NCBI RefSeq assembly: GCF_003627755.1
Contig: NZ_CP032694.1
Location: forward strand, 3,711,501-3,775,500
Source of the DNA: Rhizobium jaguaris
Lineage (GTDB): Bacteria; Pseudomonadota; Alphaproteobacteria; Rhizobiales; Rhizobiaceae
DNA length: 64,000 nucleotides
Direction of reading: 5' to 3'
This document shows, piece by piece, positions 18,162 to 31,320 of the stretch. Under the pieces are notes generated by a model. It saw nothing but the letters and a program-made list of their open reading frames with translations, did not search any database and had not been told where the DNA came from. Position 1 is the stretch's first letter, and the number at the start of each line of letters is the position of its first letter. Position numbers and translations under genes: made by a program.

Positions 18162-18893
18162 TCAAGCCGTCCAGCCACCGTCGATGACATGGATCTGACC
18201 GGTGGTGAAGCCCGCCTCGTCGCCGGCGAGATAGGTCACCAGCGCCGCGATCTCCTTGGCATCGGCGATGCGCCCCATCGGCTGACGGGCGATGAAATCG
18301 GTCATGGCCTTCTCGTAATCGCCGGTAGCGCGCAGGCGCTCGTGCAACGACGGGCTGTCGACGGTGCCCGGGCAAATGGCATTGACGCGGATGCCCTTGG
18401 AGACGAAATCGGCGGCGATCGATTTGGTAAGGCCGATCACGGCCGCCTTGGAGGCGCAATAGGCGAAGCGGTTCGGCACGCCCTTCACGCTTGAGGCGAC
18501 CGAGGACATGTTGACGATCGAGCCTTTGCCCTTTTTAAGCATGCCCGGCAGGAAGGTGCGGCAGGTCGTGTACATCGCCTTGGCATTGAGATTGAAGGAG
18601 AAATCCCAATCCTTCTCTTCGCAGTCGAGGATGGTGCCGGCATGCACGAAGCCGGCGCAATTGAAGAGCACGTCGATCGGACCGAGTTCGTCGGCGTAAG
18701 CCTTCACCGCGGCGCTGTCGAGCACGTTCAGCACATGCTTGCTGGCGCCTTCCAGCGTCGAAAGCGTCTGCTCGTTGATGTCGGTGGCGTAGACATGCGC
18801 ACCGAGCGAAATGAAGCGCTCGGCCGTCGCCCGTCCGATACCCTGCCCCGCCGCCGTGATGACGACCTTCTTGCCTTCCAATCCGTGACCCAT
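18162..18893 (-). CDS. SDR dehydrogenase, 2-keto-3-deoxy-L-fuconate dehydrogenase-like
   Basis: A 243-residue classical short-chain dehydrogenase. The NAD-binding motif is TAAGQGIGRAT (about residues 12-22), an Asp in YATDINE points to NAD+ preference, and the catalytic residues are Ser in MSSVASSVKG and YxxxK in YCASK. The phrases DCEEKDWDFSFNLN and CPGTVDSPSLHERL are those I remember from human DHRS6/BDH2 and the bacterial 2-keto-3-deoxy-L-fuconate dehydrogenase of the oxidative L-fucose route. It is the last gene of the long minus-strand operon with mutarotase and sugar-acid dehydratase, which supports this. The ATG at 18893 avoids a leader that does not belong to the SDR fold. Confidence 0.85.
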   Translation of the reverse strand: MGHGLEGKKVVITAAGQGIGRATAERFISLGAHVYATDINEQTLSTLEGASKHVLNVLDSAAVKAYADELGPIDVLFNCAGFVHAGTILDCEEKDWDFSFNLNAKAMYTTCRTFLPGMLKKGKGSIVNMSSVASSVKGVPNRFAYCASKAAVIGLTKSIAADFVSKGIRVNAICPGTVDSPSLHERLRATGDYEKAMTDFIARQPMGRIADAKEIAALVTYLAGDEAGFTTGQIHVIDGGWTA

Positions 18894-19007
18894 AATCCTG
18901 ATCCTTTCCTCCAGGGCATGATCTCGAGACCGAAGGCAACCCAGCGAAAACGCTTGATTGCCTGCGGATAAGACCATGCGAAAACAAACAGCTAGAGCCG
19001 TCCCGCT

Positions 19008-20141
19008 CTAGCCTTCGAACGATTGCGCGAAGAGCCGGTTAAGCTTGTCGATGAGGACTGTATGCCGCTCGGCGGCGCGCAGTCCATTGGTAATGATGTC
19101 TGAAGCCTCGCTTTGGAACGCCATGTAGCCGTCATGACGCGGCCGAACGTATGCCCCCTCAAGCGTGGCGCGCGTATTGCGGTAGAAATCAAGTGCAGGC
19201 GCGTTGACGGCATCGCTGACCCACGCATCGGAGTGGCCGGGTTGACCGTTGCCGCTGGCATAGGCGCCGGCCTGCACCGGCCCACTGGCAATCCAACGCG
19301 CAAAGGCTTTGGCCGCCTCCGGCGCCTGCGTCCTGGCCGAAACGGCAATACCCGTGCCGCCGAGGGCCGAGCCGTTCGGTACACGCCCGTCGATCACGGG
19401 CATGTCGGCAAAAGCTAAGCGCGCCGGTCGGAATCCGGCAAAGGAATAGCTGACATAGCCATAGGCAAAGGGAACGACGTCATAGGGGCAATCCGGCTCG
19501 CTCATCAGATCGAAGACGGCGATCGGGTCCATCTCGTAGCATCTCGCATCCATGCCTGCGACGAGCCGTGCCATCCAGTCGAGCACGACTTCTCCATCAG
19601 CCCTGGCGATGCACTCCGGTCCCTCGATGCTGCAGGGTGTGCCGAGATGCGCCGCAAGCGTGAAGAAGGTCATCAGCGAATGCGGCGGCCGCATCGGCAG
19701 GATCGCCCTGCCTTTGGCTGCCAGCGATACGATCTCGGCGAGATCGGCGATCGGCCCGCTCAACCGGTCCGGTCGGTGGGCCTGAACCTGCGTCGCCGCA
19801 TCGATCGGAAAGGCCCATTGCCGACCTTGCCAGTTGTAGCTCGGATAAGATCGTCCGACCGTGCCGGCGGCGATCGCAGCCAGTTCATCCGCATGTCCGG
19901 CATCGTCGAGCGGCAGCAGACAATTCTCTCGCGTGATCTGGCCGACATGCGGATGATCGATGACGATGAGGTCGTAGGCCGCGGCAAGCTCATCGACCGG
20001 AAAGGTTTCGAAATCCTGCAGCGACCGCTTCTCCCAGGCGATCTCGACACCGGTCTTTTCCAACCAGAGTTTCGAACATGCCACCATCGGATCGTAGCCT
20101 CGCGGATGCGACCAGGTCATTCCCTTGAGTTTCACCATCAT
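19008..20141 (-). CDS. ABC substrate-binding-like protein without signal peptide
   Basis: A 377-residue protein with the fold signs of family 1 solute-binding proteins: LKGMTWSHPRGYDPMVACSK at the N-terminus, AYDLIVIDHPHVGQI in the first lobe, and YVRPRHDGYMAFQ plus EASDIITNGLRAAERH at the C-terminus. It starts directly with mature-like sequence and has no signal peptide; the preceding MaoC gene stops only six bases upstream, so no leader is hidden. It is probably cytoplasmic and may act as a sensor, carrier or enzyme instead of a transport protein. It lies between MaoC and SDR genes in a catabolic operon that has its own, exported binding protein. Confidence 0.75.
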   Translation of the reverse strand: MMVKLKGMTWSHPRGYDPMVACSKLWLEKTGVEIAWEKRSLQDFETFPVDELAAAYDLIVIDHPHVGQITRENCLLPLDDAGHADELAAIAAGTVGRSYPSYNWQGRQWAFPIDAATQVQAHRPDRLSGPIADLAEIVSLAAKGRAILPMRPPHSLMTFFTLAAHLGTPCSIEGPECIARADGEVVLDWMARLVAGMDARCYEMDPIAVFDLMSEPDCPYDVVPFAYGYVSYSFAGFRPARLAFADMPVIDGRVPNGSALGGTGIAVSARTQAPEAAKAFARWIASGPVQAGAYASGNGQPGHSDAWVSDAVNAPALDFYRNTRATLEGAYVRPRHDGYMAFQSEASDIITNGLRAAERHTVLIDKLNRLFAQSFEG

Positions 20142-20147
20142 TCTCTC

Positions 20148-29582: not shown

Positions 29583-29615
29583 GCGCGCCATAGAAGTCCA
29601 TCGAAAGCCCATGCC

Positions 29616-30161
29616 ATGACTGCCACCGTCGGCATTTCCAGCACCCATCCGAAGACCATGCCGGCGGATCATGCCGACATTCCCGTCTGGAACTCGGAAA
29701 ACTGGTTCTATGAAGACTTCGAGATCGGTCACAAGATCCGGTCGCTGCGGCGGACGATCTCCGAAGGCGAATCCCAGCAGTTCAACGCCCTCGTGCTCGA
29801 TATGCATCCCTATGTCAGCGACCAGATCTTTGCGGAGACGGAGGGCCTGTTCGGCAAACGCCTCGTCGCCGGTGCTTTCGTCTTTTCCGCCGGCCTCGGT
29901 CTCGTCGCTACCAACTGCATCAACGCCTTCTCCTACGGCTACGACAAGCTGCGCTTCATCAAGCCCACCTTCATCGGCGACACGATCTACACCATCCGCA
30001 CCAATCTCGACAAACAGCCGAAATACAAGGATCTCGGTTTGATCCGCTCTTCGTACGAAGTCTTCAAGGGCGAAGGCGAGCTGGTGCTTTATTGCGAGCA
30101 TATCCAGACGGTACGCTACAAGAACGGCCGGCCCGCCGATGCTCCGGAATTGAAGGGCTGA
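29616..30161 (+). CDS. MaoC family hydratase-like protein (MaoC-2)
   Basis: A 181-residue hot-dog domain protein with a 25-residue N-terminal extension. It shares with MaoC-1 (20148) the segments [20 protein letters not shown] and [10 protein letters not shown], but the putative active-site loop is different: here [11 protein letters not shown] stands where MaoC-1 has DFFPHHMD. The two may therefore be a catalytic and a structural partner, or two separate enzymes. It lies between lactonase and CoA-transferase genes, with only one base between its stop and the next ATG, so it is cotranscribed. Confidence 0.86.
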
Positions 30162-30162
30162 G

Positions 30163-31320
30163 ATGACCACAGGAAACAAGGACAGCCTGCTCGCCGGCAT
30201 TACGGTGCTGGATATGAGCCAGTTCCTGGCCGGGCCGATGGCCGCTCTTCGGCTCGGCGACCTCGGTGCCCGGGTGATCAAGGTCGAGCGTCCCGACGGC
30301 GGCGATCTCTGCCGCAGGCTTTATCTCAGCGACACCGAGATCGGTGGCGACTCGACGCTGTTCCACGCAATCAATCGCGGCAAGGAGAGCTTTGCCGTCA
30401 ACATGAAGGACGAAGGTGACCTGCAAGACCTTAGGACGCTGATCGAAAAGGCCGATGTCATCATCCAGAATTTCCGCCCTGGGGTCATCGATCGCCTGGG
30501 TCTCGACTACGCCTCGGTCGCCAAAATCAATCCACGCATCGTCTACGGCAGCATCACCGGCTATGGCCCGGACAACGAGTGGCGACAGTTTCCCGGCCAG
30601 GACCTGCTCGCCCAGGCCCGCTCCGGCGCCATGTGGCTGAACGGCGAGGCCGATGATGGCCCGGTGCCCTTCGGCCTAGCGGTCGCCGACATGCTGGCCG
30701 GCAATCTCATCGTCCAGGGCATTCTCGCCGGCCTCGTGCGGCGCGGCGTCACCGGCCAGGGCGTCCACGTCGAAACCAGCCTGCTGGAGGCCATGATCGA
30801 TTTCCAGTTCGAGGTCCTGACCACCCATCTGAACGATGGCGGTCGCCCGCCGAAGAAATCCTCCGTGCGCAATGCCCACGCCTATCTCTCAGCCCCCTAT
30901 GGCGTCTATCATTGCGCCGATGGTTGGCTGGCGCTGGCCATGACGCCGCTGCCGAAACTGGCGCCTCTCTTCGAGCTTCCAGCGCTTGCCGACTACACGC
31001 CGGACGAGGCCTTTTCCCGCCGCGACGAGATCAAGAGCCTGATCGCCAGCCGCCTGCATGAGAAGACGGTGAAGGAATGGCTCGCCATCTTGGAGCCCGC
31101 CGACATCTGGGCGGCGGAGGTGCTGGACTGGCCGAAACTGCTGGAAACCGCCGCGTTCCGGCAGCTCGACATGTTGCAGACGGTAACCCGTGGCGACGGC
31201 GCTTCCGTTCGCACGACGGCAAGCCCGATCCGTATCAATGGCGTCAGGCGCAAGAACGATCTTGCCGCCCCGACGATCGGCAGCGATTCCGAGAAGATCA
31301 GAGCGGAATTCTTCGCCTGA
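30163..31320 (+). CDS. CaiB/BaiF family III CoA-transferase
   Basis: A 385-residue family III CoA-transferase. The N-terminal signature is VLDMSQFLAGPMAALRLGDL, followed by GARVIKVERPDGGD, and the catalytic Asp is in the stretch PGQDLLAQARSG, equivalent to the aspartate that forms an acyl anhydride in this family. Known members move CoA between carboxylic acids without ATP. It is the last gene of the plus-strand operon with a MaoC protein, an arrangement that points to conversion of a hydroxy or unsaturated acid as CoA ester. The acid is unknown. Confidence 0.9.
   Translation: MTTGNKDSLLAGITVLDMSQFLAGPMAALRLGDLGARVIKVERPDGGDLCRRLYLSDTEIGGDSTLFHAINRGKESFAVNMKDEGDLQDLRTLIEKADVIIQNFRPGVIDRLGLDYASVAKINPRIVYGSITGYGPDNEWRQFPGQDLLAQARSGAMWLNGEADDGPVPFGLAVADMLAGNLIVQGILAGLVRRGVTGQGVHVETSLLEAMIDFQFEVLTTHLNDGGRPPKKSSVRNAHAYLSAPYGVYHCADGWLALAMTPLPKLAPLFELPALADYTPDEAFSRRDEIKSLIASRLHEKTVKEWLAILEPADIWAAEVLDWPKLLETAAFRQLDMLQTVTRGDGASVRTTASPIRINGVRRKNDLAAPTIGSDSEKIRAEFFA

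Follow-up and report, generated by a model that had tools for sequence, protein, structure and literature searches.

A conserved sugar-oxidation island of Rhizobium jaguaris with a candidate coenzyme A-dependent step in sugar-acid dehydration

The oxidative route for L-fucose and L-rhamnose involves a mutarotase, a dehydrogenase, a lactonase, L-fuconate dehydratase (FucD) or rhamnonate dehydratase, an SDR-type dehydrogenase and a hydrolase of the FAH family, and pentoses are oxidised in pathways of the Weimberg type. Here, an island of Rhizobium jaguaris was analysed in which genes of this kind stand next to genes for coenzyme A (CoA) chemistry. It occupies positions 18162-31320 of the window, the whole analysed stretch of 64 kb (C1:3711501-3775500) of the 8.03-Mb genome; C1 and C2 denote sequences of this genome, and compared loci are numbered with the prefix L. 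The minus arm carries an SDR gene, SBPc (a binding-protein-like protein without signal sequence), MaoC1, a Gfo/Idh oxidoreductase, RhaM, an enolase-superfamily enzyme and an ABC importer with its periplasmic solute-binding protein (SBP), and the plus arm carries IclR, an Amidohydro_2 protein, MaoC2 and a class III CoA-transferase. All genes that a sequence-only reading of the window had named around iclR were recovered at these positions by Pfam and NCBIfam profile matches. The CoA genes recall the cai operon of Escherichia coli, for which PMC2131755 documents CoA cycling by CaiB together with hydration and dehydration by CaiD on carnitine; there, a 3-hydroxy acid and its dehydrated counterpart are converted into each other at the level of CoA esters by a hydratase working with a class III CoA-transferase. 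The island departs from it in the presumed sugar-acid substrate, in the MaoC type of its hydratases and in the SBP-fold protein without signal, and a CaiC-like ligase was not seen in the island.

R. jaguaris has the gene types of the oxidative L-fucose/L-rhamnose route, some inside the island and others outside it; in Sinorhizobium meliloti, Labrenzia and Nitratireductor they form one cluster. Unlike that route, the island adds the CoA-transferase, SBPc, the MaoC proteins and an extra enolase-superfamily enzyme, and it has a Gfo/Idh protein as presumed dehydrogenase. The gene set thus agrees with the earlier assignment to an oxidative deoxysugar-type route, and the MaoC and CoA-transferase genes most naturally point to a step through CoA esters. 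A deoxysugar substrate is predicted from the gene types, and L-fucose itself is only a candidate. The comparison of related loci described below suggests, tentatively, that the CoA genes may dehydrate sugar acids.

One genome per species was scanned with two peptide patterns, which yielded 412 loci with SBPc relatives, and the best 80 were kept. After 11 loci shorter than 21 kb had been set aside, 69 full-length loci were tallied, 24 of the window type and 45 others. The gene set is a conserved unit. The sugar genes are present throughout the 24 window-type loci, MaoC2 is present in 23 of them, and the CoA-transferase, matched by coordinates, lies at or just past the locus edge in all 24. Among the 45 other loci, the CoA-transferase occurs in 41 (43 if any of three query types is counted) and a hydratase gene in 42, so that the gene pairing known from CaiB and CaiD recurs; MaoC2 was found in 36. 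Their 10-kb flanks contain IclR (41), the lactonase-type gene (39), the periplasmic SBP (38), MaoC1 (31), Gfo/Idh (29), RhaM (28), the enolase-superfamily gene (27) and SDR (21), the counts of the later genes being limited by the flank. FAH and FucD, which lie beyond the flank in this arrangement, appeared there in two loci and one locus, respectively. A chance neighbourhood is ruled out by the recurrence of this content in 69 full-length relatives, and so is, for the loci examined, an occurrence of MaoC and CoA-transferase genes mostly apart from sugar genes. In these loci the CoA genes stay with the sugar genes, and the earlier view that MaoC, CoA-transferase and the signal-less protein belong to the island is borne out. 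The best protein and locus matches of the island come from Rhizobium tropici/rhizogenes relatives. On pSymB of S. meliloti 1021 (L104) the order is CoA-transferase, SBPc, lactonase-type gene, IclR, SBP, permeases, ABC, enolase, RhaM, Gfo, MaoC1, SDR, FAH and FucD, and MaoC2 was not detected in this cluster. Its locus tags are presumably SM_b21101-21113; L-fucose fitness data reportedly exist for these genes, but a search by five of the tags returned no paper, and such data are not used as evidence.

The CoA genes retain most of their catalytic residues. The catalytic Asp of the CoA-transferase (Asp176 in the window) is conserved in 116 of 117 sequences, the remaining one being truncated there, the Asp/His pair of MaoC1 in 79/79, and each of two Glu positions of the crotonase found in related clusters in 19/20. 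The catalytic His of MaoC2 is lost in all 74 sequences that cover it (Val in 73, Ile in one; 7 truncated rows of 81 were set aside), and MaoC2 is strongly conserved despite this universal loss. MaoC1 aligns to the N-terminal and MaoC2 to the C-terminal half of two-domain MaoC dehydratases such as beta-methylmalyl-CoA dehydratase (PDB 8hgn) and 4e3e, an arrangement that hints at a hetero-oligomer in which one partner is active; unlike in these two-domain enzymes, the halves are encoded by separate genes on opposite arms. The nearest NCBIfam models of the CoA genes are succinate-glutarate and mesaconate CoA-transferases and PaaZ.

SBPc is predicted to share the sugar-binding-protein fold over its whole length with proteins of the CUT1 type (trehalose/maltose-binding protein 1eu8, SmoF), and a PDB sequence search with it returned nothing at E 0.01. 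It differs from CUT1 sugar-binding proteins in its strongly conserved core, in its tie to catabolic enzymes and in having no signal sequence as predicted by hydropathy: the most hydrophobic stretch of 12 residues around the start reaches at most 1.25 in 138 SBPc members and at least 1.47 in 83 periplasmic SBPs, so that the ranges do not overlap and a cytosolic location is predicted. Across 13 divergent members 45 columns are invariant, including one His, three Asp, two Arg and three Trp. In 70 of 79 SBPc loci (the 45 other full-length loci, 20 survey loci and 14 loci from plasmids and the own genome), the CoA-transferase gene is a neighbour of SBPc on the same strand, no more than 1.2 kb away, and a 4-base overlap of the two genes was found in 40 of these 79, with frames taken from the first possible start. 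The 24 window-type loci stand outside this count because their SBPc and CoA-transferase genes are on different arms with 10 kb between them. R. jaguaris has only 7 CoA_transf_3 matches in approximately 8 Mb, and the adjacency speaks in favour of a CoA-dependent dehydration. In our view, the SBPc-type proteins probably do not serve transport and instead take part, inside the cell, in the breakdown of sugar acids.

SBPc loci span Alphaproteobacteria (including Rhizobiales), Betaproteobacteria, Streptomyces and Rufibacter (Bacteroidota). The survey, which included the own genome, gave 6 of 385 genomes in the class and 18 of 398 in the phylum; few candidates were scored in each, and these rates are lower bounds. 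It contributed 24 SBPc loci outside R. jaguaris, the flanks of 20 of which were compared. A CoA-transferase lies within the stretch in 17 of the 20, among them L158 and L163, whose CoA-transferase lies at a distance of 6 kb and resembles the query by only 41%; none is present in the stretch of the three other loci (L147, L148 and L149), which in L147 and L148 stops at the contig end. Protein searches with SBPc gave 3638 matches among 8000 scored at E 1e-5 and 3809 among 8000 at E 1e-20, which may include ordinary binding proteins, and the best 120 of each were examined. Additionally, a second SBP-like family that differs from SBPc in its motifs and has no evident signal was seen in Rufibacter and Croceibacterium (L097:15670-16797, L106:5426-6613), where it sits with second CoA-transferases, Gfo/Idh and MaoC. 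In clusters with two CoA-transferases and this second SBP type, a classical dehydratase was not found in L073, L075, L097 and L106, and L150 and L151 have one at the locus edge.

A placement of the CoA step is suggested by sister clusters of Sinorhizobium medicae, Variovorax, Streptomyces, Pararhizobium and others, which consist of CoA-transferase, SBPc, crotonase, aldose 1-epimerase and SDR genes and often add an FAH protein of approximately 390 aa, with the FAH-family structure 9kkt and 2-keto-3-deoxy-D-arabinonate dehydratase as solved relatives. In these genes they resemble Weimberg-type pentose oxidation, and they look like a set for this purpose from which the gene for an aldonate dehydratase is missing. 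Relatives of IlvD, enolase, UxuA and UxaA were not found in the compared stretch of 16 of 18 sister clusters; unlike the Weimberg-type sets, these carry CoA-transferase, SBPc and crotonase or MaoC instead. The 18 loci were defined by a CoA-transferase nearest the S. medicae type (L039, L087, L098, L099, L107, L108, L109, L117, L152, L157, L159, L173, L174, L175, L176, L177, L179 and L180), and the result divides into 10 of 11 in stretches that preceded the idea and 6 of 7 in stretches taken to test it. The two exceptions are L117 and L180, the latter with its dehydratase relative in a neighbouring divergent operon, and L108 and L152 have MaoC and no crotonase match. All five SBPc loci without CoA-transferase (L063, L101, L147, L148, L149) possess a classical dehydratase. 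The contrast gives a Fisher value of 6e-4, which is descriptive only because of the kinship of the loci and because the test followed the observation. Left out of both counts were L043, which has an enolase gene and whose stretch ends at the expected CoA-transferase, L158 and L163 with CoA-transferase and UxuA-like genes, L073 and L075 with several modules, L154 and L155 in which no dehydratase was found, and L156 with an enolase-superfamily gene about 5 kb off. Two sister loci differ in content: L159 has genes for acid uptake by a TRAP system, confirmed by Pfam, together with MaoC, CoA-transferase, crotonase, SBPc and an FAH protein, L039 resembles it without a detected FAH gene, and in both none of the searched dehydrogenase and dehydratase relatives was found. 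R. jaguaris has a sister cluster of its own (L117, C2:2358500-2377500) with LacI, an aldo-keto reductase, RhaM, a CUT1-type importer, CoA-transferase, SBPc, crotonase and an enolase gene at the edge.

The sequence-only reading had noted that the island lacks an FAH-type hydrolase and had proposed that the end of the pathway runs through CoA esters in its place, or that the island handles a different acid sugar. The hydrolase does lie outside the island, but it is not missing from the genome, which has four FAA_hydrolase matches. The one at C1:14925 (249 bits in Pfam) is 74% identical to the FAH protein of the Nitratireductor island, whose best NCBIfam model is 2,4-didehydro-3-deoxy-L-rhamnonate hydrolase at 431.6 bits, below the cut-off of 500; an absence of FAH is thereby ruled out. 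FucD, identified by homology to annotation only, is encoded at C1:3410032 and is 79% identical to a Labrenzia protein annotated as L-fuconate dehydratase; for the Nitratireductor protein, of which a 179-residue piece was compared, the identity is 78%. Directly adjoining it is a second CaiB-type CoA-transferase gene (L118, C1:3400500-3420400; no SBPc match in this locus), whose product is 79% identical to the CoA-transferase of the S. meliloti island, against 63% for the window copy. Such a second copy, 62-67% identical to the window copy, is present in 24/24 window-type relatives. The ordinary pathway tail in the window lineage therefore appears dispersed, not replaced. Moreover, FAH and the CoA genes share one cluster in S. 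meliloti, Labrenzia, Nitratireductor and Ponticoccus, and in S. meliloti both FAH and FucD adjoin the island, so that a replacement of the hydrolase by the CoA genes does not hold. The comparison with other clusters points to CoA esters at the dehydration step and not at the end of the pathway.

From this, we infer a scheme of reactions, substrate and SBPc role. The importer would take up a sugar of the 6-deoxyhexose type, on which mutarotase, Gfo/Idh 1-dehydrogenase and lactonase would act in turn, followed by dehydration to the 2-keto-3-deoxy acid, oxidation by the SDR and cleavage by FAH, with FAH and FucD supplied from elsewhere in the genome. The CoA-transferase, with SBPc as a sugar-acid-binding partner, would load CoA onto the aldonate, and the MaoC pair, or the crotonase in sister clusters, would remove the 3-hydroxyl as water between C2 and C3. 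The resulting enol would become a 2-keto-3-deoxy acyl-CoA, from which the transferase would hand the CoA to the next aldonate, a cycle modelled on that of CaiB and CaiD for carnitine. In sister clusters the CoA route would be the only dehydration step; in the island it would open a second way in for an aldonate that the ordinary dehydratase refuses on account of its configuration or substitution at C2/C3, and both routes would converge on the same keto acid because both lose the C2 and C3 centres. The view that aldonates lose water as CoA esters, through the action of CoA-transferase, SBPc and MaoC or crotonase within a deoxyhexose-type oxidation island, is regarded here as a plausible proposal, at somewhat less than even confidence. 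A wider claim, that a class III CoA-transferase, a cytosolic former transport SBPc presenting the open-chain aldonate and MaoC or crotonase make up a new kind of sugar-acid dehydration, is possible and is put forward with more doubt than conviction. It would add to the Fe-S (IlvD/EDD) and the metal-dependent (enolase, UxuA/UxaA) dehydratases and would make the SBPc family an example of a transporter fold turned into enzyme parts.

Several observations weigh against the CoA-dependent dehydration of aldonates. A classical dehydratase is often also present in deoxyhexose islands, namely FucD in S. meliloti, Shinella, Labrenzia, Nitratireductor and others, UxaA in Ponticoccus and three further genomes, and IlvD in L067; due to this coexistence the CoA module there would not be needed for the main substrate and may serve another form of the substrate or another step. 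The window lineage has SBPc and the CoA-transferase on opposite arms, separated by 10 kb. We know of no precedent for a binding-protein subunit of a family III CoA-transferase, a 2-keto acyl-CoA is a chemically unusual intermediate, and a priming CoA ligase was not seen in the island. Family III CoA-transferases are described as lone-standing in PMC9813914, so that an SBPc partner would be new. SBPc also stands beside enolase, FucD or UxuA dehydratases in the five loci without CoA-transferase (three of them among the 20 survey loci) and thus cannot be solely a CoA-transferase subunit. Finally, an enolase gene is within reach in L117 and L180, the compared loci are mutually related, and the dehydratase contrast was spotted post hoc.

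Among other explanations, it is unlikely, yet deserves weight, that the CoA module handles a modified deoxysugar such as a 2-O-methyl- or branched fucose or rhamnose. Its acid would be CoA-activated, the two MaoC proteins would dehydrate and rehydrate it and so remove or move the substituent, and the product would join the path through FucD, SDR and FAH. This would account for the coexistence of the module with the ordinary route in Labrenzia, Nitratireductor, S. meliloti and Ponticoccus, and two MaoC proteins together with a cycloisomerase-like enolase-superfamily enzyme exceed the needs of a plain fucose route. On a plasmid of Ponticoccus alexandrii (L178), some 8 kb separate SBPc from an operon for formate dehydrogenase, which would be of use for a methyl group; however, genes for methanol, formaldehyde or formate are not named beside the module in any other annotated relative, the gene tables being incomplete, and the sister clusters resemble plain aldose oxidation. 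In the same plasmid locus, a UxaA pair occupies the position of the fuconate-type dehydratase.

It is quite improbable that SBPc is a cytosolic sensor or buffer for sugar acids, with CoA-transferase and MaoC as a separate, merely co-regulated activity. The 45 invariant columns go beyond what is expected of a mere binding protein, the short overlap of SBPc and CoA-transferase genes recurs across phyla, and a second signal-less SBP-like family pairs with second CoA-transferases in Rufibacter and Croceibacterium. We regard as very improbable an action of the CoA genes at the pathway tail, on a hydroxy acid (lactate, glycerate) or a short enoyl acid after C-C cleavage: CaiB and MaoC families do act on short acids, with which the nearest NCBIfam models agree, but FAH is kept beside the CoA genes in the same clusters, the CoA genes of L039 and L159 are not accompanied by relatives of the searched dehydrogenases and dehydratases, and it is specifically the dehydratase that sister clusters lack. 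A CoA pathway of the itaconate or mesaconate type (CoA-transferase, MaoC and CitE-type lyase) was considered and set aside, as no such lyase is among the Pfam matches of the island and none is named in the annotated relatives, for which gene tables are incomplete.

The features of the island are collected in Table 1.

Table 1. Features of the island, with positions in the window
Feature	Position	Strand	Remark
SDR dehydrogenase	18162..18977	-	real start probably internal, near 18884
SBPc, predicted sugar-binding-protein fold without signal	19008..20141	-	genomic partner of CoA-transferase in relatives
MaoC1 hot-dog hydratase/dehydratase	20148..20600	-	catalytic Asp38/His43 retained; PF01575 76.1 bits
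Gfo/Idh/MocA oxidoreductase	20604..21764	-	start probably near 21677
RhaM-type mutarotase	21873..22202	-	relatives annotated L-rhamnose mutarotase
Enolase-superfamily (MR) enzyme	22217..23467	-	real start near 23332
ABC ATPase, MalK/UgpC type	23347..24468	-	profile match
ABC permease perm2	24452..25327	-	
ABC permease perm1	25321..26328	-	profile match
Periplasmic sugar-binding protein	26415..27710	-	C-terminus out of frame relative to relatives
Perfect 20-base palindrome TTCATTCATATATGAATGAA	27842..27861	.	between SBP and iclR
IclR-family regulator	27879..28682	+	profile match
Amidohydro_2, likely aldonolactonase	28746..29582	+	distant to L-fucono-1,5-lactonase
MaoC2 hot-dog protein, catalytic His to Val	29616..30161	+	possible MaoC1 partner
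Class III (CaiB/BaiF) CoA-transferase	30163..31320	+	PF02515 327.3 bits, residues 10-375; Asp176 kept

The SDR of the window is 59-65% identical to the SDRs that stand with FAH, FucD or UxaA in L100, L102, L104, L105, L110 and L178, and is likely a 2-keto-3-deoxyaldonate 4-dehydrogenase. MaoC1 has a very close solved relative in PDB 4ffu. The Gfo/Idh protein is presumed to be the aldose 1-dehydrogenase; its solved relatives are distant throughout, with a top score of 56.9 bits. For the enolase-superfamily enzyme the top-scoring solved relative is 3,6-anhydro-L-galactonate cycloisomerase, and with 283.2 bits against a curated cut-off of 500 it falls outside the L-talarate/galactarate dehydratase family. 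The Amidohydro_2 protein has L-fucono-1,5-lactonase as best NCBIfam model at 89.5 bits against a cut-off of 400, i.e., it is a distant relative outside that family. In the periplasmic SBP gene the last approximately 40 codons (about 26415-26540) are out of frame in comparison with 7/7 relatives, and the importer of the R. jaguaris island may be damaged or the sequence may contain an error. Two further transport regions were seen in the window: an ABC importer (SBP_bac_8 protein, ATPase and permease) followed by an aldehyde dehydrogenase at 10731-16361, and a polyol-type operon at 40280-48526 with an FGGY kinase, an enzyme of the mannitol-dehydrogenase family, an ABC ATPase, two permeases and an SBP.

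The palindrome between the SBP gene and iclR is a possible IclR operator. The gap between iclR and SBP could be extracted from 25 window-type loci, 16 of which contain the 18-base core of the palindrome without mismatch; the core was not found in 46 loci of other types, and a second copy of the palindrome is absent from the R. jaguaris genome at up to 3 mismatches. An FAH-type hydrolase elsewhere in the genome under the same IclR control had been named as evidence that would speak against the sequence-only reading. The hydrolase is indeed located elsewhere, and the uniqueness of the putative IclR site gives no sign of a control shared with the island.

Literature searches, judged by titles and abstract starts and with most subscription papers outside their coverage, returned no description of the CoA module. 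SBPc proteins are currently annotated as "extracellular solute-binding protein" or "multiple sugar transport system substrate-binding protein". Should the CoA route prove true, pathway tools that seek an aldonate dehydratase would miss the clusters that use it, and the route would offer a new handle on sugar-acid dehydration. The finding bears on the purpose of a widespread rhizobial operon.

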